DNA of 64,000 nucleotides from Paragonimus westermani (lineage: Eukaryota; Platyhelminthes; Trematoda; Plagiorchiida; Troglotrematidae): positions 1-64,000 of the forward strand of contig QNGE01003346.1 of the NCBI GenBank assembly GCA_008508345.1, read 5' to 3'. Shown here one piece after another: positions 14,487-64,000 of the stretch. The notes beneath the pieces are model-generated. The model was not told where the DNA came from. It made no database searches and saw only the letters and a program-made list of their open reading frames with translations. The position numbers and the translations under genes are program-made. Position 1 is the first letter of the stretch. Every line of letters begins with the position of its first letter.

Positions 14487-16726
14487 ACTCGGTATGTCAA
14501 ATGACCCCAGCTAGTGTTGTCTGTTTTAGTTCCCCTCACTGTAACTTGAATACTGTCTACATTTGACAACAGACTTCGTCTTGAGGCAGTCACTCTAACA
14601 TAATCATTTTCAAAAGTCTTCTTGCTTGTCGTTTGCTCCTTTTGCAGCCCATCATTGTAACCTATATATGCTGTCACCCGGGTCTAAGTACCGGTTTACT
14701 CTAACATACATTGCGCAGCACATTCGATATTTTCTGTGGTATCAACTCGATGGGTTGTCCTAATCATGTGGTCAACGAGTGGCCTTAACAGGGCAATTAC
14801 TTTGCCTGTCGTCGAAGCATTCCAGTGACTTAAACACAACGTACAAGCGAAAGTTGCTGAGTATCCACACCCGATAAATCGGCCGTGTAATATGACTGGT
14901 ATGAAGCAATATTTGGTGCGGTTGACTCGTAAGAACGTGGTTGAACACTCAAATCCTAACCATGACAGATGTATGGACTACTTGTGACCAAACCTCTAAT
15001 TTAGGGCATCTATCGAGAAGGTTTACGAAAAAGTCTGCGATCCAAAAAACAGCCCTCAACTGTGAGTGTAATGCAGTTTATGCGCTAATTAGGACATCCG
15101 CTGCCTACCAGTAATCTTGCTAATCTTCCAAAAGCTGGTCAGTTATAATCTCTTGTTCAACGTGTTTATTACAAATTACCAGGCAAGTGATGTAGAGGCG
15201 TTACAGTGTCGATTGATATTTCCCGTTGCTGTTGACACTAGATCTTCCCATGGACTTCTCTGATCGTACTAAAACTGTACCCAATTGGAATACCTCCAAC
15301 AGTTACAGCACGTGTGAATGCGTTTTTTCGATTTCGAAAAATCCGTTTACAACTTGAGACATACGTTACCATGTTTGATTTTGATCTAACGCTATACGTT
15401 TACGCATCAGAACACACTGTATCAGATGTAAATGTCAAGAATTTAATCCAGTGCTGATAGAAACGGTTAATGCATTATACGTTTGAGTGAACTCCACCAA
15501 TGAGGCAGCAGTCTTAGAGTGCTCTTGTCAAGAAACATATAAGGATATTTTTGCCACTCACCTCCTAGACACTTTGTTCGTACTGAAATGAATCTGAGAC
15601 ATTAGGCTCCCTTCAACACTCTCCATAATGATCTCGAGAACAAATGTGATGTAGAACGGCAAGGTGCTTCGTACAGTAAGAATGCATATAGGTAGCTTCA
15701 TTAGAGATAGCAAATCTCAAAATATAAAGAGATAAGGAGATTTTGGGAACACAACCGTAAACGAAGAAGCTTTGGCTCTGAGAAAACTTTGGATATCCGA
15801 ATTACGTTTCTATGTCTGGATAAACTCCTGCTGAATAGGAGAACCAGGACGTCAGTCTAGACTGTTTGTGAACATTGGGAGATGAGCATAATGAACGGCT
15901 TGTTGTTGAACTGTGGGGTGCAACCTTGGATGTCATTCAATCCTAGTTTGAAAAGGGCTACTCATTGTTCCGTATAAAGTAGTTGTCTTGTAGTAAGATA
16001 GTTTGGATGCTACACTCCTGTACGAAAAATACTGCGATGACAATTATCTGATGTTCACTAATTCACTTTAAAACCTCTTCGTTTCGGGTTCCCAATGAAT
16101 CTCCAAGACTAATGTTTACGTTAATGCACTAAACGTGAAACTGGTGTACTACACGTCGAAATGATTTTAGCGTCTTTTCAGCCTGGATACTAGCAGTGAC
16201 ACTACATCACGCAACACAAGCTGTGCAAAAATAAACATTGTGACTTTTATTCCTGTGTGCGCTCAGGATGTGTGGAATGTTAGACATCGAAGTCGCATAA
16301 AAACGGAAGTTTTAGAATCTTGATATTTCAAAACTACCTGATCCGGTGAAATGTTTCGTGAGGCGATACGATTGTCTTGAGAAGGTCACAGAATCTTATC
16401 ACAGGGAGTGTGGCACAATTATATGGTAACAAAAAGGCGAGAAATTTTAAAACAGACGGATACTATTTCGTACACTAATTTGACTGCACACTTGGCGCAT
16501 TAAAATTACCTTGATGAACTGTTAACCAAGGTGAAAAGACTATAACGTGGACATTTAGGGACAGACATTATTCTTTGAATGCTATCGTATCTGGCTTTCG
16601 AAACAGCACCTAGTCCCTCGTTAAACGAATGGTGCGGAAAGTTCTTCTAAACTGAATAGGCATCAGCACACTAGCAAACAAATAAGAGGTAATTCACGTG
16701 AGACATAATTGCGAAAAATGTGAACT

Positions 16727-16800: not shown

Positions 16801-18499
16801 ACCAAAAAATCAGAACTATCATATTTGTACTCAGTTAACTACCCAACTGGCTGTATCATATGGGATACAACTGGTTCAGCGGATTGGTCACTCAAGTAGG
16901 ATTCCTCAATCAGTTCACGCTGAAATCCACCAGCGTCACCGTTCAGCATTGAACTAAGTGAGACTATAGGTACTGTTGTATATGAATCCATACCCGGTAA
17001 TTTCAAGCTTGTTTCTGACTCTGATCAAAATGTGCAATTTGATCTGATAATACAACAATTTTCATTTCTTTGACACTCTCGAGGACTAGCGTCCATACGA
17101 GAAGTATCGGTATCTCGTTGTTACAGAAGTCTAGAGTCGATTAGACCGCACTGAATACGCGAGTAGTGGTTTTTGTCAAACCAGATCGTAACAAATCTGA
17201 TATATCAAAACAACTCTAACCGTAACACGACTGAACAGTGAAGTCAAAACAGTTTTTGCTCAGTGTTTCCCCCGAACGCGTTTCGCTGCATCTCATCACG
17301 TACATTTACTGCAGTCTACGAGTTTTACAGCAAATTTCAATGGAATTTTTGTAATCAAACCACAAAATCACTTACCACCTGCGGGGTGGTGGCACTTAAA
17401 AAATGGAAGCCACCTGTCTGCGTAGAGAAAGACTTTTTATCAGTAACAGATTGTCCTGGTAACTAATGAGCATTCATGTGTCAGTACGTGTGTAGTTAAT
17501 GCTTTTAACGTTTGACTTGGCAACGCCCACTGAACATAATTATATAAATCCGTAGACTGCAGTGTGTACCTGATGAGATGTAACTAAATGTGTCCCAGGG
17601 ATAGATCGGGCAAAAATTGTTTCTTTTAAGTGTGGGTGGTGCTCGACTTGAAATAACCGAACTTGCAACACTGGTTCAAAGCACGCTTAGTTGGTGCAAT
17701 TAAGACAGTATCTTCAACCTCACTGAGAAATCTTGATCAGGGGGTTATCGATTGCATAGAACAGAGCGATTCTGTTCATTCTGCTTTCAAAATGAACGGC
17801 CAAGGTGAACACTAATTATAGAGGGTTGTGCTGAAACGTTCGACGTTGATCATTCGGTCACGTCTACTGTGAGGTAGCTGCCGTTGTGGTTAACACGCTA
17901 GTCATATACAACAAATAGTGCCCACACTACATGAACAAGTGAATGAGTACATACACACAGGTGATATCCGAATTGTCAGTCTATCTTCGTTATTAAACCG
18001 GAGGACCTGGAATGTAGTAGTTTATTCGCGTGTGGCATAAATCCTACAGTTTAATTAGGTTGGTCGATTTGTCAGTCATTCTGCTGCCTCGTCACTTTTG
18101 AAAGGCACTCGATCCAACACAGACTTCTTTCCTATATCGTCAAAATTTGGGAACGATATTTGACTTTCAATCCTTTCCTCAATTGGAAACTTAACTTACC
18201 GGTGTTTGTGATTGATGTTGGTTTGAGTTGTTTGGTTCTGTTACAACTCACTTCTGATCTTAAGCGTTGCTTTCCGATTGAATGCATTATTACCTATCGC
18301 TGGTTGTGTGTTGACCTGTTCAGGTATCATTGTGATTATTGTTGCGTTGACTAGTGCCGTCTAACTCTCTAGGAAAGATATTTGGCTTCCAGCCTCCTCA
18401 GGCGTAAAATTAACTGACTGGTGGGCGCGAGTGAACTTGTCGAGCACTGTGAGCCTATTAGTATCCCAGCTAGTAATGGTAACTATATTGTCTGTTAAT
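16801..18499. other. No recognised gene
   Basis: Short open frames only (for example 17263-17466 and 18160-18354 on the plus strand), with no recognisable motif. Confidence 0.4.
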
Positions 18500-19828: not shown

Positions 19829-22545
19829 CTTCTGACTTCCGCATTACGAACACAACACGTTGTGAGCTGGATGAATAACTACCTGTAAAATATCCTAATC
19901 ATATTAGCCGTCGTGTCATTTAAGGATAGTGTTGTATGACATTTTGGGCAGTGTACATTTGTTGAACACACTACACAACTAGAGAAGTACTTTGTTATTT
20001 AGACTATCTCGTGATTCCCACAAGTATCACTAAAAGAATCTACGAAGTTCGTTATCCCTTCTTCATATTCTAACACCATAGCTTGAATTGCCCACCAGTA
20101 GTAAAGTTGTTTTGTGCGGTAGTAAGTAACGTGCTGTATGTTCACTGATCAGTGGCAAGCTGATTGTCGCAACATGACACCAGGGTGAACACTAAGGCTT
20201 TAATCAGCTCTTCTTTACAATAAGGAGAATAGCAATCACAGTGGAAGATCAACACTTTTCCGTCTAAGCCGCTACCTTTGCCTTCAAGGTTAGCATGTTT
20301 AAGTTGACAAATGAATAGAAGTGTGGCTGTACGGAGCGTGATTCCTCAGCAGCGCTTCTGCGGTTATTTCATGGAACTTCTCAGTGGCCTTGTCTACACT
20401 TGAGCACGCATAGGAGTACGCTGGCTCTGGCTCCTTATTTGGCATGGTGGATGTTATGGAACATCTCTTTATATGACTATGGTGATTGTCTACGTCAAAA
20501 GATCTGGAGAATCCACCGAACCTATATCCTTCAATCTTCAATGGAATGAGTTTGCGTCCATCATCAGAACTCCTGAGAATCCAATGTAAGATAAGGGTGT
20601 CAGAACAACACACCTACACAATTTACGGCCAACTCAACTACACCAACTCATGCAGTACGCAGGCGGTTAATTTGGCTTCCAGTTCAACTGAGGCCAAGTC
20701 TCCGTTTTCCCAAGCTTTTACCATGGGGCGACTGTCAGATTGTGTACATCACTCTGTCACTTGCGGAATAAGTGTGCACCGTATAATTGTACTCACTAAT
20801 TGATGCTGAAGACAACACATAATCGCATGAGTGCAAGTACTCGCTGAAGTGGACAGGACAATATAATTGGACAAAGAACTCCCAGTTCTTACGTCGCTTC
20901 AGGTATGCCTTTCGAGGATAAACAATAAACTAAGTAGGCGATGTGATATGGAAATGGTTGGCAGCCTTCAGTTTGGACTAGACTTTCACAGTGACCGAAG
21001 CCAAAGGACGCCCGTGTCTAACCATCACCACCGGTTGATTGCATTGCACCATTTGTAGCTCTTCTCACACATCACGTATCCATTGTAAACCCAAAAGAAC
21101 AAGACCAGGAGGTACGTGATTAAGGCCCTTGTGCCTAATCGACCAATGGTGGTTAGCCAATTGACTACGCAGATAAGTTTCAGTTAACACTCAGTAGGCG
21201 TTCATGCACACAAATTTGGGGTATTATGGATTTTGACCGAACCTTCTTTCAAGTTTAACCATTCTGATTTAATTTTGTTTTATACCCCTTAGGGCCTGAG
21301 GAGATTGTATCAAAAACATGTTTGTTACGCTTCGTTTTCTATGACTCAATCGGAATTTTCGAAAGAAGGAGGCTCGGTGTTCATCATCTCATTGAGGAAC
21401 GCATTGTGTAGGGAAAAAGGTTGAAATCGGGTAAGTTCACGTCCTTCATGGCTTGGTGGACCGTGTTACCGTCCTGTATGGAGATTGGGAATTCTAGTCC
21501 CCGAGGACGGTTGTTCTTTCGCCACCCAATTCATGAAAAAAGCAATAGTCAAAAATCCTTCTTCGTTGCTTCTATCCCCGAATCAGCAATATTGTTTATA
21601 GGATATCATCGATGATTGAGATCGCTGGGGTCACTATGCACGTATCAACGCACATTGAAAGTGTGTATGCTGATATTTTGTCGGCTTTGAGGTAATCAGT
21701 AATCTTTGTTCACTTACCTCGAGGCGACTGGTTATTCACTGTGGGTGGTGTCATACGTGTTGTGATTGCCCAGTCGATGTGGATCAGTAATAGATACACA
21801 AGTCCCGCTACTAAAGCGCTAGATTCCAGTTGCTAGCAGGGCAAAAAATGGCATTTTGCCCACCACAGATTAGTGCACTCGACCAGTTCGGTCTACCGTT
21901 ACTTGATAAACAGTAAATCCGAAGTGTTGCTATTCAATCGGACCACCGATATCCCAGTATGGACCTACGAGTTTCATCATGCGGCTGTTCGCAAATATTG
22001 TTGGAGAGCAGCACAGGAAAACGACCGGTGTGTTAGGTTGGCAATTCTAACAGTGTGTGGTAACAGAGTGAACAGATAGTTGCTCAAAGATCGCTAATGA
22101 GCTACACAGACGACTGAGATTTTCACCGTCGCTGGTTTATCTATTAATCAAACGCTTGGTGCTAACGTCAAGCAATGAACTAACTAGGGTGATTACTAGC
22201 TTCGTCGCAGCACAAGAAAGACCTGAAGCTCTTGATGCTGACATGATTTTTGTTAGTATCCTAAGTACTTATTTTTAGGTATCAATACGTACAGCAACTT
22301 GTTAGGTGATGTGAAGCGACACTGCACCAGTCACACTACATTTTTCAGTTGTTCAAATCGCGAGCAGTTGCATTCTTGCTGTTCTAATTACTGAGGGGAA
22401 TTGTAGAGTGAAGTGGTCTGCAAAAGGCTGCTTCGGTAGTTTGGCTGATCACAACTTTTCCCTCTCAGGTGAGTCTTGTTAATTTGGAAAGCTCCCTGAA
22501 CTGACCTTTAAACTGAAGTGAAAGATTTTTGTTGGAGTTTCTCAG
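19829..22545. other. No recognised gene; one repeat
   Basis: Open frames at 20299-20613 (-) and 20486-20803 (+) overlap on opposite strands and show no domain. A repeat shared with 45723-45826 lies at 21273-21364. Confidence 0.4.
21273..21364 (+). repeat. Dispersed repeat shared with 45723-45826
   Basis: About 90 bp ending CAATCGGAATTTTCGAAAG matches 45723-45826 (ending CAATGGGAATTTTCGAAAT) at moderate identity, in the same orientation. The family is unknown. Confidence 0.5.
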
Positions 22546-32115: not shown

Positions 32116-35100
32116 GTTACTCATGCAAGCGTCTAACATTGTAACATCATTTCTTGATCACCGAAGGTCGAGGTCATGAACTAAAAGGACGGGAGGAATA
32201 CAATCCAGATGGGTGTTCCAAGTTTCAATGGGTGACAACTGTGCAGCAGTGAAGTGAATTGCGAGGAATGCTATGTAACCGTAGGCGTCATAGCTAGTGG
32301 TGACGTGACTACATGGCGTTGCGATCATTGCGACCGTGAAAGCACTGACCGTCTCAGACCGTTAGTTCATCAATGTACTGATGGTTCATCGTTAGTGATG
32401 AGAAGACGAGCAATTAAGACATCAGGAAGTAATGCTTGTCATCCATTTTTTCGTTTGCACCCGCCGTTTGGTGTCATGATAGCCTTTAATCTTTTTTCTT
32501 CAGCTCTGTTGATACACAGCATAACTTTGTTTTTCAGTCTACATTTAAAGATGTGTTTCTTTCCCATCATCCTAAACAGGGCACAATAATATGCACCCTT
32601 ATTTTGAACTACTTCTTGCCTTTTATTTCCAGTATTTTTCTTCTAACTGTTTATCTTACCACTGCAGTCTTCCTGGTTATTATCCTAAAGACACGGTTTT
32701 CATTTGTGTACCAGCTTATCATTTGACTAGCCAGTGTTAGCTGGTTGGACCACACAGACCTCTACCCATCTGCTTCTGGTTTTGTTCCTTCAAATATACA
32801 CCGGATTTAAAGCATGTTCGAAACCACAAGTGGTGCACCGCCAGTCACTAATTGCGAATGTTGTGTATTTGCTTCCTTAAGCTTCGACAACTGTGACAAG
32901 CTGATTCGAAACGGATGCTACCAATCATGTTTGTGTCAACATGGGGCATTAAACCTCCATGGATCGTATGACTATACTACTTCATTCAGGTTGATTGAAT
33001 TTGACTGTCTTTTTCTGATTAACTCGTTTGCGGGTTTTGCATTGTTCCATTGCATGATGTCTACACCAACACCAACAATACTGTGAGGATGAACGATCGA
33101 ACTACACTACTCACGATTGAAGGTACTCACTGAGGTACTAAAGTAACCGGAGAATACACAAAAAAACAGGTGAGATCTAGTTCTGTACAGATGTTTTTCA
33201 TGCATGAAATTAGCATTGGAAACTGTGGGTTTTCCGGGTTATCATTGTGTGTAAATAGGTGTTTGCCTCTGGGTTTTGTTGAAGCAAATACCAGCTGTGT
33301 TGGGCTTCAGAGAAGGCGGATCACAGTGCAATCCTTTAGCGATTACATTTTAAGCAATAGACATAGGATGCACGAACTTGCGGGAGCGTGGTTTCCCATA
33401 TAAAGTGTTAACTAGTCACGGCGCATGACTTCCTCACAGATATATGGGTTTGTATGCGATTTTTGCACAGTCCGGACCGGTAGCGGACATGCGACAAGTC
33501 ATATGTTTCGTACGTTGACGTTGAAGCCGTTAAAATAGCCATTCGGTCAGTTTCAGGAAGCACTGCGACAAAATTACAAGCTACACCAGACTCAAGGTTT
33601 AAAAGACGCATGGATCCTTACACAAATAAGTTCACTTTGGTTCGTCGATGACCGCTCATAACTCACTGATTGGCCCCATTTAACGCACGAATGATGCATC
33701 CAAAACTACGCAGGCTTTGAGGAAACAATACAGCCCCAAACGGCTAGGTAAATAGAGTGACCTGCAACGTACAATAAGTGAGGAAGCAGGTAGGCGAATT
33801 GTACATGAACCACACTTCACCTGTTGGAATCCGCAACCTTTGTACAGACGTGCAGTAGCTGAACGACCAATTGCCTAGCCTAGACAAAACAAATCGTTGT
33901 TGTTGTGATTGGCTCGGTAAACGATAGGCAAGTGATCATCAATGCACATCGGTCTTTTGTCCAAACCTTATTGCTCACCTGATCCCAAGTCCTACCTTGA
34001 TTCACCCAACACATTTGGAAAACGTCTGTATCTCTGTTTCGCACTGGGTGTTCATCTAGTTAGCTGTTCAACCTGCAAAAAATTACAGCACGGTACAAAC
34101 AGTCATCTCATTCGCATGCACTCAGTCATTTTCTCTTCACCCTATGTTAACGCTCAGGTGGTCTATCTAACTCTCCGAATTCCATTACCACCTCATCAGG
34201 CGTCATTCATTCCTATGTGATGTTGTGTTTATCGGTCGGCACACAGCGAGTTCAGCGGAAATGTTCTCACTTACATAGACGAGTGTGGTTCGGACGTGAT
34301 GCAGATGACACACGTTGGTCTGATGGATGATCAGCTTTCATTGAAATGCAATGATTTATTCACTTCGATTGAGTGGCTATTCAACCAGTGCATACGGTCA
34401 CACAAATAAAGTATGTCTGGATCAAAACAGTACTGATTCAGTAAAGTGTACTTGCCGGACAAGTACGGTTTGAAAGCTGCAAAATAACTCTGTCTATTAT
34501 GTTATCAAGTACGTACGTAAATAATGTGGGTTACAACTATACTGATTATATAACTTAAAATCTTATTTATTGATATCCGTGGCAATCTAAACAATCAACA
34601 GATCTGTTGGATGACAATCATTACACAACATTTAATGCTGATAATCGCGGTCAAACAAGCGTATACATAAAATTCGGTAAAAGGGGTGCCTGATGTCTTG
34701 TACAAGAACATTTCACTCATTAATTATTAGTCACTATGCCGAGAATGATAAAAAACAGTGATAATGAGAAGATATGATAGTACTTTTGATAACAGCACGG
34801 CATTTATATTCTGGATAAATTGTGCACGTAACTATGGCGTTCTAAACAGTGTAGAGTCCAAACATCCATCTGGAGTTTCCAAAGGACGTGACAATACGCT
34901 CAACGAACCCTATTTTTCGAGTGCAAGTCTAAACGATCAATTAACTTACTTTATCTTGGTAATCTAATTTGTTTTACTGCGTCAACTTTTTTCTCTCTTA
35001 TGAATTTATTCACTTTAATTTGAAACAGTGAGTTTCTTTGGTCCAATTCACCAATAGTCATAGAAGACATACATCGCGAGATGTTAACTTTTCGTTTACT

Positions 35101-35249: not shown

Positions 35250-37059
35250 GAGCCTGATGGCAAGTACTGGTTACCATTGCCTCGGAGAAAACAAACAATT
35301 CCGGGTTCCGAATGCACAACAGTACTTGAAACGAGTTGACTGGATCAACAACATGTTCTGTTTCCATGATGTGCATTGCAATGAGTGCGGTCGGATATCA
35401 ATCTCTCTGTTGCCATTGCCTGTTACGTCATCGCATGCACCAAGCACTTAGGCATAGGCTCAGCCAGTTGTTGTCGTGGACACCGATCTGTTCTGTCGAT
35501 ATAAATGTCAACGCAACTGCAAGTGAACTGATAGATCATAGGTGAGACAGCACATTTCGGTAGATCACGATTATATGTAAGCTGAGTGGAATTCTTAGTT
35601 GTGAGTAGCAACCGCAATGCAGCCGCAGAGTATGTACGAGTTCCAGCAGATTGTAGTTTTTGATTCACGTCAGTTGTTGTAGGAACGCCTTTGAAAGTTA
35701 GGTTCAGAAAGACCTGCTTCTTAGAAGCCGTACTCACGGTAGATTTGATCAACCTTTTCTGGCTGTGAATATTGATAGACTCCACAGGGTGTCCGTTTGC
35801 CAGCAGCACCTCCCTTAATCTCCCCTTCTCTCCTTGCAAACAGTCATCGATGCAGGCCCCCCACGCTCTGTGAGGCATGTTTCGCACCAGCACTCGTTTG
35901 TAAGTAACTCGCACGAAAGAAGAAAACTGCAAATACTGACCACTCCAAACGACTTTAAGGTGCAGTGAACACTGTAGTGAGCAACTGTGCCGCTTAGTAA
36001 GAAGAATGTCTAGATAAGATAGACTGTTATTTGTCTCCTCTTCTTGAAAAACACAAAGGTTAGGATGGATGGAAGGGACCAACTGGCTACGCCCTTCTAC
36101 ACCAACAACTTGTTTACAGGATGCTCTACCAAAATCAAAGTGAATATTTTATGTACACAAAAATATGAACTCCTTGAAGTAAGCAATTTGAAGAAGAAAA
36201 GGTTAATTTTGAGGGGAAATAAAATCGTATAAAAAATCGGCTGTTTTTTTGGGAGAGAACGTTTGTAAATAAAGAGTCAACATCGGTAGAAAAACTATTA
36301 CTTGGACAAACCGATACATTCTGTAAGGTTTGCACTGGTTCAAAGGATTCATTTTAAACAATGAGTGGTAAGCACTTGACGGAAGGGTGATTTGTTTATG
36401 CACATGATTGGCATTACCGGGACAGCACATTTGCGTATTTTTGAAGTATCTCTTAACGGTGATGTGCAGATTTCGGTTGGTTTCATTTCTCTTCATTGTA
36501 ATCCTGATTTATTCTCGTGTAGCAGTAATATTTGGAGCTTACATGAGATCTGCTTCTCTTTCGACATGTTGTCAAGCGTACTGTCTGTGTGAAACTTTCT
36601 TTTGCCCGCTAGGATATCTATCATTTTTGACTCATAACCAGTCTTGTTCATGAACACTGTACCGAAGCCTTCGTCTGATAGAAGAAAAACCAAAAACTTC
36701 ATTTCTCGCAGTTGTCTCAGAACTTGATAGTGTGCAGGCATCAGGCAGCAAAGCTGAAGCGCAGGTGAGGTCAGGAAATGGTACAAAATATAGACTAGCT
36801 TCGCGCGGAACCAACCTTCGTTGTCCTGTGACGTTGGGGAGAAGTCCATTGTTTGATCACACAGGTTCTCACGTTGCGCTGGCGTTTGTAATCGGTCGAC
36901 TGTTTTGGGAGGAATTTTAAACTCCAGTCCGAGGGATAGGACCGCTAAGTGTGCACGGGTAAACTGAGCCAACGATAAGTTCTGCACGTATTTCAAGCCA
37001 TCTGTAATTAATAGGCACGCTATATCTGAACGCAACAAAGTTCCTTGAAGACTGCGCAC
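35250..37059 (-). pseudogene. Penelope-like element, copy 2 (N-terminal domain, RT, GIY-YIG)
   Basis: The longest PLE copy, read on the minus strand. The N-terminal domain at 37059-36493 reads LSLAQFTRAHLAVLSLGLEF, then REMKFLVFLLSDEGFGTVFM and KTGYESKMIDIL. A finger/palm part follows at 36496-36203, and FSTDVDSLFTNV (the SFDV-SLFTNV box) lies near 36280. Then comes a worn GV-MGSPLGP region near 36100 (VVGVEGRSQLVPSI). About 50 residues that should hold YVDD are missing, and NNSLSYLDILL, then VWSGQYLQFSSF and VTYKRVLV follow (36050-35870). The GIY-YIG nuclease start VSPMIYQFTCSCVDIYIDRT is near 35530-35480, with GIY-YIG arginine and EH-like residues changed. Weak sequence similar to the family C-terminus reaches about 35250. 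Stops and frameshifts are present. Confidence 0.85.
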
Positions 37060-37077
37060 AATCTTGGTTCTAGTATT

Positions 37078-37443
37078 TTACATTACGATACTAACAGATT
37101 TCTCAAACTTTATACGACATATCAGTGACAGACTGTTAAGTGTGGATGTGAGACACGGTTGAATCTGCAGATATTGTTCAGCCTTTCTTCTGAAGCCTTG
37201 ACATGCGAATTTGCTAGCCTGATATGGTTGACGTTGTTTCTGGACAATTTTTCCTTCAGCAGCAAACGGTAAAATAACGATGGGAATCGACTTGATCTTA
37301 CGCACTGTTTGTAGAACCCAATAGTTATATATTTTTATTTGCGAGTTGGAAGTGGCTGTTGTCGTTTCAAATTTCGTTATCCACGATGATAGTTGATCAA
37401 CACGTTTTGAAAGTATTACGTCAATACCAACATTTCCCTTCAC
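37078..37443 (-). other. Possible 5' part of PLE copy 2
   Basis: An open frame of 121 residues on the same strand directly upstream of the PLE N-terminal domain. It is lysine- and serine-rich, without a recognised motif. Its position suggests the 5' region of the same element; nothing in the residues proves it. Confidence 0.3.
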
Positions 37444-37527
37444 TTCTGATTCGAATTCAACCGAAACTCAGAATTTCGCAGTTAGGTCCCCAAAAATTAT
37501 GACCAAATCTACCGCAGTAACGTACGA

Positions 37528-37758
37528 TGATTTGGTCGTGTCTAATATGAGGACAATGGTGCATTGGTTAGGACGGTTGCCTCAAGAAAATGTCCGGGGA
37601 TCTACTGCCGGCCGCGGCAAAGATATGCATTGCTGACAAGCTCTAGTGAGAGCGAAACTCTAGTCTGGTGGTTGTTTTCGAAAGGGATCGACTGGAAAGT
37701 CTGTGAGAAAGCGACAGCTGTGATCAGTTGTGGGTGATACTCAATCTATATGAAAACC
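37528..37758 (+). mobile_element. Hammerhead SINE-like repeat, copy E (ribozyme dead)
   Basis: A plus-strand member that begins GATTTGGTCGTGTCTAATATG and has a worn A/B-box region and the ribozyme region at about 37626-37672. The core reads CTGACAA, so the essential G8 is A, although helix II (GCTCT-AGTG-AGAGC), GAAAC and GTC are intact. The 3' body reads GAAAGGGATCGACTGGAAAG and belongs to a variant shared with copies F and 55485-55597. Confidence 0.75.
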
Positions 37759-37920
37759 AAAATGTCATACCACACACCGGTAAACAAGTTAAATACTCAG
37801 AAGCGGTGTTGGCAGATTCTGACGTGCACTGTTTGAGAAATCATGCTTGGGTAGCCAAAAGCATTTGTTTGATGGATTCCATATGACAGAGCGTTGGGTA
37901 GATAAAAAAATCTAAACTCT

Positions 37921-38030: not shown

Positions 38031-38413
38031 AGGATCTGTTCCGAAAAAATACATCAATTGAGTCACTCTACTTATCATTATGCATACCGACAGTAAAGAA
38101 AGCATCATACTACTGTCTCCAGAATGTCACTAATGCGTTATTATCAAACGTCTCTTGTCGCTATGTCTGTTCGTATGAGTTCCGCCATAGTAACTCATTA
38201 GAACCAAGCGTAATTTCATCGTTCCACCGCTTACATATTTCAAGGTCAGTAGAAGCGAATAACTGTTTCACAGGCATTCGCAGTAGGTTAAACCGAAGAA
38301 TTTACCAGCAGGATGTCTCAATGATGGCATTGCATCAGACCATGATTGAAGGTTTCTGCTAACCGCTACGTTAGATGAGTTAATGTTAAAAATATCGTCC
38401 AAAACGTTTGCTG

Positions 38414-38776
38414 ATTTCTGTGATTTTAACTTGGAGGGGTCATCGTGGGGTCATCGACTGAGGTTAACAGAACACTTGTTGTCTCCTCTCGAGGCCATTG
38501 CGCATTCTGAGCTTCACTCGCAAACGGGCGTGGCTGAGAGTGTATATATTATGAGTTAGTCCTGCCTAGTGTTAGGTCAACGACGCAGTGGTCAACCTAG
38601 TTGCATCATGAGAACATCCAAAATTCCGATCCCTACCGTGGCATGGATGTGCAATACCGACCAGCTCTAACAAGATCAAAATTCGAGTCTAGTTCTTGTT
38701 TTTGAAAGGGGCCGATCGGTGAGTCTATGGGAATCCGACGGCTGTAATCGGTTGTGAGTGTTGTTCAACTTGAAAT
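38414..38776 (+). mobile_element. Hammerhead SINE-like repeat, copy F (old, head preserved)
   Basis: A plus-strand, near-full-length but diverged copy. Its head (GGGGTCATCGACTGAGG, TTAACAG, TGTCTCCTCTCGAGG) matches the head of copy C and shows that the family extends well upstream of the tRNA-like part. The ribozyme core is destroyed (CCGACCA instead of CTGANGA). The tail ends GTTCAACTTGAAATG. Confidence 0.7.
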
Positions 38777-40572: not shown

Positions 40573-40587
40573 TTATACAATTATTGA
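40573..40587 (+). repeat. Target-site duplication, left
   Basis: TTATACAATTATTGA, identical to 41054-41068. The two copies bracket both head-to-head SINE-like units. The last three bases may belong to the element, since other copies start CTGATGAG. Confidence 0.75.
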
Positions 40588-40742
40588 TAAGTAGTCAGGG
40601 ATTTGGTTGTGTCAAGTTGAACACTACTCACATTTGATCGCAGCGCTCGCATTCACGTAGATTCTCCAGCCAGTCTCTTCCGAAAAGAAACACTAGACTC
40701 GAATTTCGCTTTCATCAGAGCTCGTCAGTAGTGCATATCCTT
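40588..40742 (-). mobile_element. Hammerhead SINE-like repeat, copy B (5'-truncated)
   Basis: The minus-strand unit starts at CAAGGATATGC just 3' of where the B box would be and includes the hammerhead, the 3' body and the tail (CCAAATCCCTGAC). Its truncated 5' end abuts copy A, so the two form a head-to-head pair. Confidence 0.8.
40688..40736 (-). ncRNA. Type I hammerhead ribozyme, one helix II mismatch
   Basis: On the minus strand: ATGCACTA, CTGACGA (40728-40722), GCTCT-GATG-AAAGC with one C.A mismatch, GAAA, helix III ATTCGAGT, C17 at 40696, TAGTGT pairing with the first six positions of helix I. The core is complete. Confidence 0.65.
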
Positions 40743-40850
40743 GTTACTCTGTCTCCTATCGAGACGATCGGGCAACCGGATCATTGCTCACATGCGAGAG
40801 TGGTTGAGCGTCCAGATTTGATAATTCGGTCGTGCCTAATGTGAGGTCAG

Positions 40851-40865
40851 TGGCGCACGCAGTGG
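40851..40865 (+). promoter_or_regulatory. Pol III A box (tRNA-like)
   Basis: TGGCGCACGCAGTGG followed by TTAACAC fits TRGCNNAGTGG with a small insertion. It is the first half of an internal RNA polymerase III promoter; the B box follows 32 bp later. Confidence 0.65.
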
Positions 40866-40896
40866 TTAACACGGTTGCCTCATGATTGGATTGTCC

Positions 40897-40909
40897 GGAG
40901 TTCAAATCC
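40897..40909 (+). promoter_or_regulatory. Pol III B box (tRNA-like)
   Basis: GGAGTTCAAATCC fits GGTTCRANNCC apart from an extra A. It is conserved on the other strand in copies C and D, so it is a family feature. Confidence 0.7.
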
Positions 40910-40925
40910 CGGCCGTGGCAAGGAT

Positions 40926-40974
40926 ATGCACTACTGATGAGCTCTAATGAGAGCGAAACTCGAGTCTGGTGCAT
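40926..40974 (+). ncRNA. Type I hammerhead ribozyme, intact
   Basis: Self-cleaving RNA. Helix I 5' strand ATGCACTA (40926-40933), core CTGATGA (40934-40940), helix II GCTCT (40941-40945), loop AATG, AGAGC (40950-40954), GAA (40955-40957), then the very short helix III ACTCGAGT (40958-40965), C17 at 40966, cleavage after it, and helix I 3' strand TGGTGCAT (40967-40974). Helix I pairs over 8 bp with one T.G wobble, helix II over 5 bp with no mismatch, and every conserved core base is present. The tiny helix III (a self-complementary ACTCGAGT) is typical of animal retroelement hammerheads, which often work as dimers. The family comparison is established knowledge; activity here is inferred. Confidence 0.9.
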
Positions 40975-41053
40975 CTTTTCGAAAGAGGCGGGTTGCAATG
41001 TCTACCTGAATGTGAAGGCTGCGATCAAATGTGAGTGATATTCAGCTTGAAAA

Positions 41054-41068
41054 TTATACAATTATTGA
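41054..41068 (+). repeat. Target-site duplication, right
   Basis: TTATACAATTATTGA, identical to 40573-40587. Confidence 0.75.
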
Positions 41069-44447: not shown

Positions 44448-45600
44448 TCCATTAATATCTGGTCGACGTGCCAAAAACGAATTTCCAGGAGTCGCTTCTA
44501 GAATGTACCCATAATGTACAGTTTATTTTTTACGGTGACATTTGTAGACAAATGAAGGCAGTGGAAATGGGGTCACCGATAGGAGAAGTGCTGACAGATA
44601 TTTTTGTGGGCAACTTGAAACGAACGATGCCGAGCACTGTCAGAAATCAATTGGTTTTCTACATTCATTATGATGACAATATTTCCTACATTACAAATTC
44701 ATCTGTCAACATAGCTGATATTTTGGAGGAATTCACTTGCGTACATCCGTTGATCAGTTTTGCATCGGAATTCGAGTCCGATGTGTCTTTCCACTTCTTG
44801 GACGTATCTCTGAGTGAAACGACTGATGGAAGTTTGAGATGCTCCGTTTATAGTAAGACTACTTGGTCAGACCAGTACAGTAACTTTTATAGTTCTACCG
44901 AATTAAGATATAAACGAAGCTTGGGCAAACGTTTGGCGGATAAAACCAGAAAAATCTGATCAGCAAATGCTTTGGAACGCCAGCTACAGATTGTAACTCG
45001 TACCCTACAAGAGAATAGTTACTCTGACAATTTTGTGACCAAACACATGAAAGCAGTTCATGCATCAGTTAAGATCCAAGGGGTTGGTAAAAATGTCTTA
45101 TGTTCATACTGCTGCCACACGGATGACATACGTTGGCTGAATCACTGACTTATCGGTTACTATTTACCCTAAAAGAACCTTCAACGCAGCCAGACCGATT
45201 ATCTCATTCACCAGGTCACCAGTGATTACTCTAAATCTGAAGGATAAAGTGCCGGTCCACCACTCATCTGAGGTGATTTACTCGTTCGTTTGCGATTGTT
45301 CAGTAGATTGCGTTGGTCGTGCTATTCGACACTTGTCTCGAAGGATCGAAAAAGACCATCCAACACGGATCCTAACAGACGAAAGATAATCAATCATGAG
45401 TGCCATTCTAGATCAACTGGCTGACAGAAGTCATCAGGCCAACATAGATCGGTTGTTCGCCGTAATCTACACGGTTCCACTGAATCGGTCAAAACCTGTT
45501 CACCAGTGAACGTTAACTAATGTCGAGGTCAGTAACACTTGATTACGTGGTCCAACCTTGTATGTATAGAAGAAGTTCGTCCAATCGTGTCGACTGATTT
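44448..45600 (+). pseudogene. Penelope-like element, copy 4 (RT palm to C-terminus)
   Basis: A 5'-truncated plus-strand copy. It starts VPKTNFQESLLECTHNVQFI (about 44468-44527), then GSPIGEVLTDIFVGNL (about 44574), a damaged YVDD box (FYIHYDDNISY, about 44660), FHFLDVSLSETTDGSLRCSV (about 44790-44850) and the WSDQYSNFYS segment. After stops the GIY-YIG reads VIYSFVCDCSVDCVGRAIRH then LSRRIEKDHP (45274-45366), and a C-terminal tail reads RLFAVIYTVPLNRSK and KKFVQS (45450-45580). The tail matches that of copy 5, so the two belong to one lineage. The catalytic box and several frames are broken. Confidence 0.85.
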
Positions 45601-51701: not shown

Positions 51702-53480
51702 CTTGTTGTTTTAGATGGATTGGTTTACCCTTTTCGGTGCTACCTCGTTTGCACATTACTCGACGATAACTATTTGTTTCTTCACATCTTAACGGTGAGG
51801 AAACCACGTTTTAGTGTCCGGTATTTCTAGCCGTCATACTATCCTTAAATGTAAGTGAAGGTTCGGTATTGTAAAATTGACCAAATTTAGCTTGGCTGGC
51901 AATTGTAAGTTCTGCTGCCGATAAAACAATTACCTAAGACAAGGGCTCTGTTTGATGTAGAACTTTTGGTTCATCAGACTACCGGATCATCTAGTCTCGT
52001 GACTTCTTTCTTGACAGGCTTACACCAATCATTTCTGTAATAAAAGAACGACCAGAATTGTGAAGCCACGTAACACGTTTTGCTTGGGTAGCTATTGTAG
52101 ATAGGAAAGTGTAGACAGTTGCAAAAAACATTCGCGATTATACCATACAATTGTGCTGTGTATCACAAGTAGGAACAGGCTTGATACGAGATAGGTGCGC
52201 TACTTTGGTTTTTTATGCACATCGATACACTCAGACGAAACAAGCACAAGCTTCACCGTTTCGATTACACGGCTGTTTCCAGTTTGGCCGTTGGGGCAGT
52301 TCACTCCTGGGGACGTCTAATGTTGGTGAGACACTGAGCCCTACAGTAGCACCACGATTCGAGACTATGTTTGCAGATCTTAACACGCTCATTCTTTTAT
52401 GAAGTATAAACTCTGAACTATTTACAAATTGTGAACAGATACACTGCCTACTTTGGAATTTACAAACTTGTGTCAATTTGGAGGAGTGAACGAGGTAACA
52501 GAAGTGTTTTTTGTCTGACTTTAGAAATAGATCCTCAAGTGCCATCTAATATAGTCAATTAGTTCATATTGAAGACATAAAAAACGTTTTCCATACAAAC
52601 ATTAAAATGTATATCGTTGGTAAGTTGACTGAAGTGCAAGCTCCATCTCTGAAGAGCATGCTAGTAGTATTGTTCTTCATCAGGTCTGGTATGCTGACGT
52701 TTGGTTGACTACTGTCTTACTCTCCTACCTACCCTCATGCACTGTGTACACGTGCTACGCACTCAACTGTATATGTCGACTCATCCTTCAGTGTATGTCA
52801 TTCGATTTGTCAAGATAACTTCAATTTCATATTTAAGTCAAACAGATACGAACCACCTGAACTGTGATGGTGAATGTTTTTCCGCTTGAGGTTGCATTCC
52901 CTAATCGTACGGTGGTGGAACAACACTCACCCAGTTCACATTTTTTCCTGATTATTGGAGCAAACAAAATACCGCTGATGAATCTGGATGTCGTGTGTTC
53001 CAGAACAATCCAACCGAGGCTGGAACTGTTGGTTAAAACTCATTTTCATTTATTTCAGTCACGGACTGCTGTGCAACATCCACTGCGCAGCCCTGGCAAT
53101 GGTATCAAGATAAGATGTCGATTTGAGCTCCGAATTATTCCTTGTTTCGTTGGAACCGAGTTGTACTATGAGTCGCCTATCTCGTCTTGTAAAGCGCACT
53201 CGTCGTCCCCTTCTCAATCAAAATGCAAGAGTAGCTCTAGACCACCAAAGTCCTCTGACGATTTGTCACTTGCTTATACGCTAAATTCTTACCTCATTAC
53301 CAGTCGTTTTGTTAGTTTCTTCGTGAAATGGCGTGGGCTCTGGTTACATGACACTTATCATACAGACCACTGGAAATGCAGACAACCCTTCGTAACTCAG
53401 TAACAACGTTAACTTTAAGGGAAAATCACAAAATGTTACGCTTATGCACTTTTATCAACGCTACTTCATAAGCTATTGCG
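51702..53480. other. No recognised gene; one long open frame
   Basis: Apart from the open frame at 52864-53403 nothing stands out. Confidence 0.35.
52864..53403 (+). CDS. 179-residue open frame, unrecognised
   Basis: The second-longest uninterrupted frame listed here that I could not assign. It begins MMVNVFPLEVAFPNRTVVE, has a serine/lysine-rich middle (SSPSQSKCKSSSRPPKSSDD) and ends in a tryptophan-containing part (FVKWRGLWLHDTYH). It could be a single-exon gene, an exon, or chance. I see no signal peptide, domain or convincing splice borders. Confidence 0.2.
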   Translation: MMVNVFPLEVAFPNRTVVEQHSPSSHFFLIIGANKIPLMNLDVVCSRTIQPRLELLVKTHFHLFQSRTAVQHPLRSPGNGIKIRCRFELRIIPCFVGTELYYESPISSCKAHSSSPSQSKCKSSSRPPKSSDDLSLAYTLNSYLITSRFVSFFVKWRGLWLHDTYHTDHWKCRQPFVTQ

Positions 53481-53483
53481 AGT

Positions 53484-53560
53484 ACTGATGAATAATCGGG
53501 GATTTGATCAATTTCAATAGTACATATGCTTGCCACGACTAGGATTTGAACTCTGAACAC
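53484..53560 (-). mobile_element. SINE-like fragment (minus part of a head-to-head pair)
   Basis: The plus strand reads TACTGATGAATAATCGGGG, the family tail in reverse, then jumps to the B-box region (TTGCCACGACTAGGATTTGA). The 3' body with the hammerhead has been deleted between the two. A plus-strand fragment of the family lies at 53845-53962. Confidence 0.65.
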
Positions 53561-53844
53561 GCTTTTATGGGTTAGATATCTTTTGAATCAAGGATTGTTT
53601 GTGGGGCCCCAATAAGCCAAATCTCCTTCTCAGCCTGCCCTCGCAAATATGAATTTAAACTGATATCAGTTATGGATTTTGTCGTACATTTCTGCTCTCC
53701 TGCAAATTTCTGCCGTTACAAATTAGTTTTTCTCCTGATGGTTGGGAACAGTGGTGGTGTTTTTCTCCTGTCCATCCTCTTTTGTAAGCAGCTTCATCCC
53801 TAATAAGACCCGATCCCTCCATCACGCATGCACTAGAGACATGC

Positions 53845-53962
53845 GGTGGCATGAATATGCACTAGTGACGAGCTCTAGTTAGAGCGAACCTCAAAACAGG
53901 TTGACTGAAAAATCTATTTGAATGCAAAGATTACGATCATATGGTGAGTGACACTCAACATG
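53845..53962 (+). mobile_element. SINE-like fragment (plus part, ribozyme dead)
   Basis: Starts near GTGGCATGAATATGCACTAG. The core reads GTGACGA (C3 changed to G) and GAACC, while helix II GCTCT-AGTT-AGAGC is intact, so the ribozyme has decayed. The tail ends GACACTCAACATGA. Confidence 0.7.
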
Positions 53963-54209
53963 AAATTAACCATATGTCCGACTATTATGTGTAGTACGTT
54001 TTTGATGCAAAGCATTCGGACACAATTTAACTCACAGCATTCCGAAAGCATTTGTTCGTCTATTACGAAAATCGTTTGATGTTGATATATGTATGGTAGA
54101 CAAACGATTTGAAATAATTCTCCAAACTTTGAATGACTGACGAAAATGTCTTTACATAAAGCGCAGTTCTCTTTGCAGAACTTGATCATATTCAGATGCA
54201 ATTGTACTA

Positions 54210-54515: not shown

Positions 54516-55484
54516 GGACATTCTACTCTTCGGTAAAATTGATTTTATGTAGTAGTACACAGTCTGCACAATTTTACGATTTTACGTGATGTCCCATTCT
54601 AGCAGTATCCGTGAGCGCAATCTTTGCACAAATCTAATCTGTGGGGATAGCAATAACTCGTCGAAATGTCACTTTTTTAGATAGTGAGCGTTACACATTT
54701 CAGTCTTGCGTGTTGTCTGTTGCATAGATTTCTATCTCGCCTATCCCCTTGTCCATGGTAGGGGTTATCTCTAGACTTGTTTAATGTTTGCACGTTAGTT
54801 TCATGAATTTGTTTTTCCGTAGCTTAACAGTGTAAATAATCACAGTCGGAACCCTGTGTGGGCTGGAACTTATCCTCGACAGACACGAGAGTAGAAAAGA
54901 ATATGGATTTAGTGTAGATCTTGTTGTGGACGACAGATAAAAAGATGTTCGGAAAATCATATTCAGTTCAAGTATAACACTACCTCATAATTTGTTACTG
55001 TAGTAAAATTGTATCTACAGAGTGTTGAACTATACGAGGGAGCCAGTAATTCAAAGGTGAACGAATGTGATACATTTAAACACATAAAGCGGTGTAAAAT
55101 TTCAAAATGAGCCACGGTTTAACAGGCATCATTAGACACGTGAACATTGAGCACCACATTCTACCCAGTTCTCGACTGATGGATCAAACGTAAAGTTCGT
55201 CGATCAGTTAGAACACATTTTTGAAATTCACTCTTGTAAAACTGGTAGAATGCTAACAGTTGGGATGTGGATTATATCTGGAGAGATCTGGGGGCGGGTT
55301 GCACTTAGAATAAACAGATTGCGCGTTTGTGACGGGATAAAATTGGCCCAACAATTGAAATGCCAGTGCCTAGGTGAACGAGGTTATTAGTGAACAGATC
55401 TGACCAATATGCTCGATCACCAGCGGATGACGTATATCTGACTATGAGTATTTCTGAATATTGATGAACATTATTCACATAAAT
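54516..55484. other. No recognised gene
   Basis: AT-rich sequence without recognisable coding or repeat signal. Confidence 0.4.
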
Positions 55485-55597
55485 TGAACATCACCCACAG
55501 ACTTCCCAATCGGTCTCTTTTAGAAAGCAGATCGACTGGAAAGTGTGTGGGAACGCGACAGCTGCGATCACTTGCGGCTGATGTTTAATTTATATGA
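55485..55597. mobile_element. SINE-like fragments, minus then plus, head to head
   Basis: TGAACATCACCCACAGACTT to about 55525 is the reverse of the 3' body, and GATCGACTGGAAAGTG from about 55526 to 55597 is the same region forward. The pair forms a short palindrome, with tails outward. It belongs to the variant of copies E and F. Confidence 0.65.
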
Positions 55598-57157
55598 ATA
55601 TTACCCACTTCCTCGCTCTGGAACATTGTACTGTGACCGTAATTGAGACGAAATTAGCCGGTCTGGTTGTCTACTAGGCAATGCTGGTCTAGATGGCATT
55701 GACGCTGATAACGCTAGATAACGCTCAATCCCAGAGGCACACCAGACACATTAACATTCTCGGTTGAAGATCTGGTACATCTCTTTGTGTTAAGCAGTCG
55801 ATTAATTCTGCAATAATGATCCTTCGAAAGTTTGAATGTTGTTCAAATGAGGACATTGTTGACCCTGTTCTATTGACGATCGAAACGCTCTCTGTTCTCA
55901 TAAGCAAATGAACATGTAGTAGATTGCCGGACTGGTGAAACTGGGCCATCTTGATAAAGGAAGTAAAGAACAACAGTGAACAGGAGTGGGTTTGACGGAC
56001 TTGTCATCTGGGGGAAAATGAACAGCTGTTTTTCAAATGTGGCTTCTCACAGATATTCTACCCACAATTTACTTATCATAGTGGCGGAACCGAAACAAAA
56101 CCGGATCAACAGCAGTTCATTGTACTCATGACATTAGGAAATATTTAGGGGTGATATAATTTGGGAATACGAGAAAAGGTACAAAGAACTGTGTGTTTCT
56201 CTTATACGTTTACATTTACCCTACAACCAGCAGAAGGATTTCAGTGACTTGTAGTATATCTGTGGTTTGTAGGGTGGAATAGGTTCTCTGAACTTCCTAC
56301 AGGGAAAGTCAACTGATGTGCTAATGTTCAGAGAAACCGTGATACACAGGCAGTTTTCTTAAGTTAAAAACTCAGAACTGTTCCAGAAAACATACGCTTG
56401 CGACATTTTTGCAAGCACAAAGAACATTTTTGGCGTATTTGCAACCGTAAACTGGATTTTTGTTTCACTATTGGTGAAAACCTCACGTCAATAAAAATCA
56501 TCCCAGCACCAGCAGCTACATACCAAGTGATCGGGACAGCCAAGACACATGTCTGGATGGTTTAGTATATTTCAGAAAAATAGCGTCACGGAGTGGCGTG
56601 TAGTTGTTTGAAGCACCACGGCGAAGTGGCAGAATAGGTGACACTGTGACTTTTAAACAGGTAATGACCATAGGAAGCATCCATCCGTTAGTAAGTTTAA
56701 CAGAAGCTATGGCAGAGTAATAGTCATTCTACAGTCACAGTGATACAGACTGCCAGATGGAATTCACTGAACGTAACACGGCTGAGTCGAACGCAAATTG
56801 CACCGGAATAAGAACGACGATCAGTTGGCGATTGGACGCAAATCCGTGTTTCTGCAATTTACTCCCTCTCGAAGTTCTCAAACATGGGCGGAATGAATGA
56901 AAAATATCAACTGTAGATTGGATATCTTAAATTACTGACAAACAGATCACTATTAGAGACAAAAGCCCAAACAGTTTCAACATTTTCTCGACAAACGAAT
57001 TTCATTGGATAGTTTTTTCGTGTAACAAAACTTGCCGTTTATCTAATCCGTGGGTATGAAACGTAATAACCACTAATAACTTGAATGTCAAAGCAGGATC
57101 AGTGAAAAATTGACCTAACCACGGCAAATCCCATGTGACCTCTGTTCCTCTGTCAAG
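55598..57157. other. No recognised gene
   Basis: No recognisable domain in the short open frames, and no repeat I can match. Confidence 0.4.
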
Positions 57158-57260
57158 GTGATTTCGATTACAACACTCCTGAGGAAGGCCACCCGAGGTG
57201 GTTGAAACGTAGAGTATTACAACTTGCTCGAAACGTTGTGCTAGTCCCAATCTGTTTTTC
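57158..57260 (+). repeat. 103-bp conserved repeat block, copy 2
   Basis: See 11858-11960. Identity is about 91% by eye, with sharp ends at GTGATTTCGATTAC and CCCAATCTGTTTTTC. Confidence 0.7.
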
Positions 57261-57650
57261 AATAACATGTTAAACACGACGCCCAAACTATTCAACTTCA
57301 TTCGTACTACATTTGATGCGGATATCTTACAGGATCAGTGATATCCGTTTTGCATGTTTAAAGCTAATTCAAGAAATCTTCGTTATTAGTCCAAATCTTA
57401 GTTGCGCTTGCATGCCCGTACTGGTTATCATCAAATGGAGTTACACAACCTGTCTGGCTTCGAATTTCAATTTGTTGCAGATTACATGACGTTCAGCATA
57501 GCATTTTGAAAAGTATGCATAGCATCTGAGGAAATTCCACAGAATTTCTGTTTCCTTTCCAAGGAATTATAATTAAAATAACTGTGTTAGTTTGTCAGTC
57601 GTTACCATCTCCATTACCTACAAAGGAAAGCGGTTGAGTTTTCAGTTATG

Positions 57651-57850
57651 GCAATTCGGTCTTGTCTAATCAGGGGTCAAAGGCGCAGTTGTCCAATGAA
57701 AGCCGGGGTTCAAATCCAGGCCATGACAAATACAATCAGTAATGATGAAGCGTAGCTAGTGTGAAATTCTCTTTGAAAGAGGTTGCCTGGAAAGTCCATG
57801 TGAATGCCAGCGATACGGTGACTCGTGAATGACGTTTAACCTGAAAGTGA
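57651..57850 (+). mobile_element. Hammerhead SINE-like repeat, copy H (old)
   Basis: The plus-strand copy has GGCGCAGTTG (A-box region), GGGGTTCAAATCCAGGCC (a good B box) and a decayed ribozyme region (ATGATGA..GAAATT; C3 lost). The 3' body reads TGCCTGGAAAGTCCATGTGA and the tail TTTAACCTGAAAG. Confidence 0.7.
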
Positions 57851-58129
57851 ATCAATAGTATATTGCATTAAAAGAAGTTTCTGCCGCGTAAAAATGGCCT
57901 AATAGCAGGTTCAACGTATTTTGTTCAATGCCACACTGCTTTAAACGTAATGATACGGATTGTCTAACATGGTCCCCTTCGTATTCGAAGAAATTTTGCG
58001 AAAATCCCCACTGAATCATATCCACATGCGTTGACAAAAGCCCATTGTCAATGTCGTTATTGAAACACATCTGGTATAGTGTGTGTGTGTGAACATTCAC
58101 AAAGCTTTCGTCCTAGTTTAGATCTCGTC

Positions 58130-58405
58130 AATGCAGCCTCTATCTGTTTAGTTGCCGAGAGGTAGGGGTTTCCTTTCCTTATTAGCCAATCAAGTGGCTA
58201 ATCAGCATTGGCCGGCTGGACAAAAAGGCCCCATTGGCACACCTCCCGGTCTTATTCCTTCGGGTTTATACTGGATAGGTGGTGTGTTGGTGGGACTGCA
58301 ATTGGTGCAGCGCAAGCCAATCGCAGTGATGGATAAGCACAGACGTCCTTTGGCTTCCGCCACTGTGACAGGCTGATCCGAATCGGATGCCGCCAACCGT
58401 GTGAA
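58130..58405 (-). mobile_element. Solo LTR (partial) of the CsRn1-like element
   Basis: On the minus strand the first 57 bp repeat the LTR sequence at 57-1. Beyond that point the window-edge copy is cut off, so this copy shows the rest of the LTR: a CAAT-rich region, TATAAACCC near 58270, and an end near GGCAACTAAACA at about 58145. No pol adjoins it, which fits a solo LTR. The ends are approximate. Confidence 0.55.
58265..58270 (-). promoter_or_regulatory. TATA box of the LTR
   Basis: TATAAA on the minus strand inside the LTR fragment, followed about 100 bp later by the LTR end. A pol II promoter is expected here in an LTR. No start site can be seen. Confidence 0.4.
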
Positions 58406-63449: not shown

Positions 63450-64000
63450 GGATGAGGTGCGTAAGACGGTTGACGACTTGTTACAGAAGAACGTGATCCG
63501 GCCCTTGAAGTCTCAACGGGCTGCCCCAATAGTTCTGGTAAAAATAAAAGGCGACGAATTTCGGTTATGCGTGGATTGCAGGAAGCTCAATGGGGTGACA
63601 AAGAAAGATGCATTTCCGTTACCAAGAATTGAAGTCCTATTTGATGCTATCGATGGAGCCATGTATATAAGTATGTTAGACTTGGCATCAGGCTATTGGC
63701 AGGTGAAGGTCGAAGAAAACGATCGAGCGAAGACGGCTATCACCGTACCGTCAGGGCTGTATGAGTTCAAATTATGCCTTTTGGACTATCAAACGCACCT
63801 GTGACATTTTCACGCTTGATGCAGGAAGCATTGCATGATTTGATCCCTCGGACATGCCTAGTGTATCTATATGATGTCATAGTCCATGAGAGGTCCGAAC
63901 TAGAGCATATGCGCAATTTGGAGTGTGTGCCGGACCGCCTGGCCGAAGTCGGTTTAAAACTAAATCCCTCAAAGTGTCACTTTCTATTCAAAGAGGTACT
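63450..64000 (+). pseudogene. Ty3/gypsy reverse transcriptase, 5' part
   Basis: The RT starts with RKTVDDLLQKNVIRPLKSQR and APIVLVKIKGDEFRLCVDCR (the P-VLV-K-G--R-CVDYR motif), KLNGVTKKDAFPLPRI, then YISMLDLASGYWQVKVEEND. A frameshift after YEFK at about 63780 leads to MPFGLSNAPVTFS in the next frame, then CLVYLYDVIVHERS (the YLDD box reads YLYD) and LNPSKCHFLFKEV at the window end. This RT is not of the CsRn1 type seen at 250-2455, so the window has two gypsy lineages. The rest of pol and the 3' LTR lie beyond 64000. Confidence 0.88.

Follow-up and report, generated by a model that had tools for sequence, protein, structure and literature searches.

A hammerhead repeat of Paragonimus westermani, probably a non-autonomous retroelement, has an end structure pointing to Penelope-type insertion

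The 64,000-nucleotide stretch of Paragonimus westermani DNA analyzed here (contig QNGE01003346.1; below, the window) harbors a family of short repeats that is probably a non-autonomous hammerhead retroelement, of the retrozyme/Sm-alpha kind, inserted by Penelope-type machinery. An inverted arm, a target duplication around the inverted pair and two alternative 3' ends point to Penelope-type insertion. All three, including the inverted arm at 40588-40747, were absent from a preliminary description of this DNA. The end structure of the repeat bears on the question of what enzyme mobilizes animal retrozymes and Sm-alpha-like repeats, as direct genomic evidence pointing to a Penelope-type mechanism. 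With many copies present in one genome, start sites, the pairing of strands and the part played by the hammerhead become matters of counting instead of guesswork. The family had been presented as possibly undescribed, and no earlier description was found in the mostly open-access literature searched.

The hammerhead motif at 40926-40974 on the forward strand, in the repeat copy termed B, is confirmed as real at the level of sequence, with cleavage predicted after 40966. Helix I is formed by ATGCACTA (40926-40933) and TGGTGCAT (40967-40974), which pair over 8 bp including one G-U. The core consists of CTGATGA (40934-40940) and GAAA (40955-40958), helix II of the 5-bp stem GCTCT/AGAGC with the loop AATG, and helix III of a single C-G pair with an adjoining A-T and the loop TCGA. 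The cleavage triplet GTC ends at 40966. The complete type I motif announced earlier (core, 5-bp helix II, GTC, 8-bp helix I) is recovered, and all defining parts of a type I hammerhead are present: CUGANGA, GAAA, a UH site, helices I-III and an open helix I. A structural descriptor (CTGANGA, helix II of at least 4 bp, GAAA, helix III of at least 1 bp, UH, helix I of at least 5 bp) matches the window twice, at 40934 (+) and 8822 (-), both times within the repeat family, and matches none of 300 dinucleotide shuffles of the window searched on both strands. A looser pattern yields 3 matches in the window, compared with 0.59 expected.

A covariance-model match and a family consensus retaining the core had been named as checks on this motif. 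The first gives a divided answer: no Rfam covariance model reaches its gathering threshold anywhere in the window, and the best sub-threshold match (E up to 5) is that to RF02275 (HH9), at 33.9 bits and E=1e-4 against a gathering score of 52. Three further family copies score 30.8, 24.8 and 19.8 bits (E 0.001, 0.086 and 3.5). As to the second check, the consensus retains the CUGANGA/GAAA core. The 74-nt hammerhead stretch folds no more stably than its shuffles (z -0.38), and its active fold is predicted to be ~6 kcal/mol less stable than the minimum-energy structure, with helices I and II still dominating the pairing. The exact core pattern has no match in viral contigs and none in prokaryote genomes, and the repeat unit does not match phages.

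A profile built from nine window copies recovers 13 stretches of the family in the window at an E of 1e-6 or better. Together with the genomic copies, these bear out that the hammerhead belongs to a family of conserved repeats which has a head of its own. Nine window copies span the hammerhead (B, b, c, d, e, f, g, i and k), with core and helices intact in B and b only; helix II contains one mismatch in f and is closed by an A.C pair in c, the core is altered in d, and the rest are broken. Even so, the hammerhead block ranks with the best conserved parts of the nine-copy window alignment: its mean pairwise column identity is 0.74 compared with 0.63 elsewhere (permutation p 0.0008), and of 241 windows of 45 columns 13 have higher scores, the top-scoring one overlapping the hammerhead. 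Covariation in the hammerhead helices of these copies does not rise above shuffles, 55 of 500 of which reach the paired fraction.

The main copy, B (40749-41053, +), has a short 3' end, CTTGAAAA. It is the sense arm of an inverted pair, head to head with copy f (40588-40747, -), which has a long 3' end, and the pair is flanked by the repeated TTATACAATTATTGA at 40573-40587 (+) and 41054-41068 (+). None of 1500 random pairs reached the 15-bp length of this duplication. A second head-to-head composite consists of the inverted arm c (2442-2678, -, long 3' end) and the sense arm c2 (2675-2756, +, short 3' end), flanked by a duplication of GACTAACAGA at 2432-2441 (+) and 2757-2766 (p about 0.002). 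Copy c2 starts ~6 nt beyond the predicted cleavage position, and the arms c2 (2675) and l (55515-55531) are alike in starting a few bases past it. Pair l (55480-55602, +) is old and palindromic, centered on a CTTTTCGAAAG-like palindrome, with ends that are not classifiable and an 8-bp repeat (p 0.024).

Copy b (8668-9144, -) is the fullest in the window and comprises tail, spacer, head, tRNA-like stretch, hammerhead (with GTA), body and tail. The same 40-odd bases, 93% alike, stand at its two ends (8666-8706 and 9110-9150), and its flanks hold a weak candidate duplication of 10 bp, TATGTTGRAA, with one mismatch (p 0.085). No ORF of 110 aa or more lies within copy B or copy b. Copy e (38379-38775, +) is unit-length, with a short 3' end and a broken hammerhead, while copy d (37523-37785, +) is 5'-truncated and weakly retains the tail (p 0.006). 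The remaining copies are old. Copy k (14689-15130, +) is degraded and has spacer/head and tail; m (17626-17906, +) passes from a body end into spacer and head in the same register as b; h (53477-53569, -) has its hammerhead deleted; g (53843-53990, +) has a tail that is not significant (p 0.20); and i lies at 57603-57857 (+).

Several other features share the window with these copies. An imperfect palindrome (17247-17622; 61% over 391 columns) lies directly before copy m. Broken frames at 35426-37467 (-) and 44456-44956 (+) look by eye like pieces of a Penelope-like reverse transcriptase and GIY-YIG domain; the Penelope-like frames have no Pfam match, and one of them has no protein homologue at 1e-3. 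The first of these frames and copy d are arranged head to head, with 56 bp between the 5' end of the frame and the start of the copy, and no convincing target duplication surrounds copy d and the adjoining Penelope-like fragment. Ty3/gypsy-type reverse transcriptase fragments occur at 63451-63801 (+) and 1966-2421 (-) (PF00078, E 2.7e-8; RT_RNaseH_2 below cut-off). When the c composite was considered as splitting a gypsy gene, no reverse transcriptase was recognized on its far side. An unrelated 106-bp repeat pair at 11855-11960 (+) and 57155-57260 (+), 90.6% alike, contains CTGAGGA, a GC-rich stem and GAAAC, and presumably resembles the minimal hammerhead of Penelope-like elements. Another dispersed repeat family is found at 58106-58402, 20956-21177 and 32637-32930 (62-71% alike).

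The genome of the window (823,446,929 bases in 9701 contigs) offers a broader view of the family. Of 4164 first-pass candidates, 40 were scored; 39 of these are matches outside the window, 91-93% identical, and all 39 loci were retrieved. As best matches to one query, they are biased toward young, B-like copies. The repeat unit has a period of 432 bp, close to the about 420 bp estimated before, and is laid out as spacer, conserved head, internal tRNA-like stretch, type I hammerhead, body of ~87 nt and A/C-rich stem-loop. Among 58 genomic copies spanning the hammerhead, the core is intact in 47, core and both helices in 44, and the GTC triplet is present in 52.

Tandem organization is frequent in this sample. 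Units abut on the same strand in 15 of the 39 loci, each joined at the identical point, and two loci (L021 and L025) hold up to three tandem units, the first one partial. These two are ~98% alike over the element, with flanks that are unalignable at E 1e-5. Unit-length copies often start near one of two start sites (columns 9-17 or 36-43), a pattern expected both from a single round on a circle and from a stop at the next start stem-loop. Such observations favor a pure retrozyme cycle, in which circles made by the hammerhead undergo rolling-circle reverse transcription by any enzyme: the tandem 432-bp units carry intact hammerheads, and several unit-length copies have the 5' ends expected of one full turn. 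Animal retrozymes are described, in the part of PMC7229834 consulted, as tandem repeats of 150-450 bp with type I hammerheads, produced in the form of circRNA, and the repeat likewise combines tandem units within this size range, a type I hammerhead and the lack of an ORF that mark metazoan non-LTR retrozymes. However, tandem units inside one locus show no clear excess of similarity over other copies (mean identity 0.899 vs 0.895, 15 pairs), and linear multimers account for the same data. We consider such a cycle a serious possibility, somewhat short of probable, and one compatible with Penelope-type insertion rather than exclusive of it. No peak of 5' ends is seen at the cleavage site (column 356) in the genomic sample, so the 5' ends of the inserts seem to be determined otherwise than by cleavage.

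At the other end of the element, two termini recur. The short end lies at column 442 (CTTGAAAA) and the long end at column 474 (CAGTAATC), which is 87 nt and 119 nt past the cleavage site (column 355) and 32 nt apart; in six window copies the short end follows the cleavage site by 83-90 nt. The 39 loci yield 81 profile matches; their ends fall at columns 434-452 in 30 cases, at columns 469-491 in 44 and elsewhere in 7, and many of those at columns 475-476 represent tandem joins. Single-orientation insertions are almost evenly split, 14 having the short end and 13 the long end, with no other end among the 27. In the window, the tail is retained at p below 0.01 in b, c, f, h, k and d and in the upstream tail of b; it is absent in B, c2, e and i, which are short, and not clear in g.

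Both 3' ends flank one side of a stem-loop, GTGAGTG...TACTCAT, with a loop richer in A+C (0.70) than the unit as a whole (0.47). Its stem is paired in 269 of 284 cells in genomic copies, compared with fractions of 0.29-0.57 when the pairing is slid. Compensatory change is not evident, as just 6 of 21 changed stem cells of the genomic copies still pair. Six old copies show 90% pairing without a covariation signal, a level reached by 451 of 500 shuffles.

The two 3' ends come together in the head-to-head pairs. Eleven of the 39 retrieved loci hold such a pair, which with the two in the window gives 13 classified composites. Each of the 13 has one short-ended and one long-ended arm, with arm classes anchored on end motifs and an arm called short whenever the long end was unmatched; given 14 of 27 short ends among single insertions, the chance of this outcome is 1.2e-4. 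Left out of the count were a locus with a tail-to-tail arrangement with a ~60% identical copy (L025), old neighbors in L024 and L040, pair l (55480-55602), the ends of which are unclear, and pair h/g, about 280 bp apart. Target duplications of 10-15 bp surround 11 of the 13 composites, five exact and six with one mismatch, at p below 0.05 against 156 cross-pairs; none is significant in L010 and L027. These 11 duplications are AT-rich (79% A+T vs 57%), a composition reached by none of 5000 random sets. Convincing duplications are found at 5 of the 27 single-orientation insertions (L015, L022, L028, L038 and L044), and the other 22 have no clear one. Apparent duplications at L034, L036 and L039 proved to be element sequence and were not counted. 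In a narrower frame, just 6 of 39 loci pass the duplication test at p 0.01, a low count that reflects profile ends overrunning the true ends. The composites thus display inverted head-to-head arms in one target duplication (13, of which 11 significant), an optional tail on one inverted arm (32 nt, where 30-40 bp is typical) and an AT-rich target, the three traits that mark Penelope-like insertions.

Every insertion hallmark would equally be present if the repeat were an ORF-less deletion derivative or solo pseudo-LTR (pLTR) of an autonomous Penelope-like element in this genome, that is, such an element's own pLTR with its hammerhead and tail. Mechanistically this is almost identical to the reading we prefer, and type I hammerheads do occur in pLTRs of Penelope-like elements, according to the excerpt of PMC7761336 consulted. 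Nevertheless, in b, in m and in the tandem loci the tail passes straight into the spacer of the next unit, indicating that the unit stands alone without an ORF. The hammerheads of Penelope-like elements are moreover described in that excerpt as having no helix III or loop-loop contacts, whereas the repeat has a minimal helix III. A derivative of this kind is conceivable but rather unlikely. Nor is the repeat itself an autonomous Penelope-like member, since a 432-bp unit cannot hold an ORF for reverse transcriptase and GIY-YIG.

The internal tRNA-like stretch bears on whether the repeat might be a hammerhead-bearing SINE of the canonical tRNA-derived type, whose own boxes would drive Pol III transcription and whose 3' end would let a LINE mobilize it. 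We take 40851-40865 (+), which carries a 4-nt insertion in copy B, to be A-box-like, and GTTCAAATCC at 40900-40909 (+) to be B-box-like. The hammerhead lies 16 nt downstream of the latter, as the preliminary description had it, and this arrangement speaks for a SINE, as do target duplications of 10-15 bp, which are also inside the LINE range. Sm-alpha and Sj-alpha, which carry hammerheads, are called SINE-like in the portion of PMC2770079 consulted. However, the boxes sit inside the unit, behind about 200 nt of conserved head, whereas a tRNA-derived SINE would begin with a tRNA-derived 5' end carrying Pol III boxes. ARAGORN at its default setting recognizes no tRNA in the window or in the family consensus, the Rfam tRNA models have no match at E up to 10, and 5' ends in the 39-locus sample do not cluster at the tRNA-like start. 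Tandem units in 15 of 39 loci likewise argue against a SINE, and two 3' ends with paired arms are not LINE traits. The earlier SINE label is therefore disfavored by internal boxes, unrecognized tRNA and tandem units, and we regard a SINE as very unlikely.

It is more improbable still that the paired arms inserted independently, or arose by recombination or misassembly, and that the two 3' ends mark two subfamilies: the arms are indeed not more alike than random copies (mean 0.84 vs 0.86 in 10 inverted neighbor pairs, old neighbors included), but the duplications enclose the pair as a whole in 11 of 13 cases, the arms are discordant in all 13, both 3' ends occur in near-identical copies, and the arms differ by up to about 20%, so they are not assembly copies.

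Insertion by Penelope-type machinery can be pictured as follows. The RNA of the element, once transcribed, would be a multimer or would self-cleave and form circles via the hammerhead, and we infer that a Penelope-like element supplies the protein that takes it up and acts as the inserting agent. At an AT-rich target, both nicked strands would prime reverse transcription inside the RNA, one starting from the short site, which lies in the loop after CTTGAAAA, and the other from the long site, 32 nt further on and after the stem. Each cDNA would proceed upstream and end at a variable point or enter a further unit. If both strands are extended, the cDNAs would meet head to head and leave an inverted short and long pair in a 10-15-bp duplication; if one strand only is kept, a single or partly tandem copy would result.

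A broader hypothesis, on which we are evenly divided, is that hammerhead retroelements parasitize the Penelope-like machinery by sharing its RNA entry module, composed of the hammerhead, a fixed distance of 85-90 nt and the two-site start stem-loop, and that paired insertion obligatorily uses both start sites. If this holds, a short arm will stand opposite a long one after each double-strand event. The pairing of short and long arms in 13 of 13 composites sets limits on the ways in which Penelope-type enzymes can initiate on the two strands.

The likeness to Sm-alpha and to animal retrozymes that was suggested at the outset is upheld by comparison with known systems. The schistosome repeats Sm-alpha and Sj-alpha are, like the repeat, short and non-coding, with a tRNA-related stretch and a type I hammerhead. 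Sm-alpha measures 335 bp in S. mansoni (PMC8490949, in the part consulted) compared with 432 bp here, and it has a tRNA-Gln in the excerpts of PMC2770079 and PMC4918200, whereas the tRNA of the repeat is unrecognized; this comparison is by description only. With the metazoan non-LTR retrozymes, as the consulted part of PMC7229834 presents them, the repeat has in common a type I hammerhead, tandem units of a few hundred bp, the lack of an ORF and target duplications longer than 4 bp. Retrozymes are made as circRNA, whereas the repeat is known here from DNA, and that part of the account makes no mention of tails or inverted arms, both of which the repeat shows. In the same pages, Cervera and de la Pena (2020) propose Penelope-like elements as the mobilizers of retrozymes on the basis of shared hammerheads, tandem copies and co-occurrence.

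For Penelope-like elements themselves, the excerpts of PMC11167929 provide the biochemical side. The purified protein cleaves and extends both strands, prefers AT-rich ATT sites and starts inside the RNA, at an AC-rich stem-loop 111-118 bp into the ORF. The hammerhead cut lies 26 bp into the ORF, which by subtraction of these figures places the start 85-92 nt past the cut, compared with 83-90 nt in the repeat. Two start sites delimit the 30-40-bp tail, and hammerhead mutants still insert. Rotifer Penelope elements, in the section of PMC3846280 consulted, have an inverted pLTR with a 31-bp tail on one inverted pLTR and target duplications of 8-10 bp, and are mostly arranged head to head. The repeat differs from Penelope-like elements in its unit without an ORF, its hammerhead with a minimal helix III and its tRNA-like stretch. 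It shares with them partial tandems, head-to-head inverted arms, a tail of ~31 bp on one arm, an AT-rich target and an AC-rich start stem-loop at a matching distance past the hammerhead cut.
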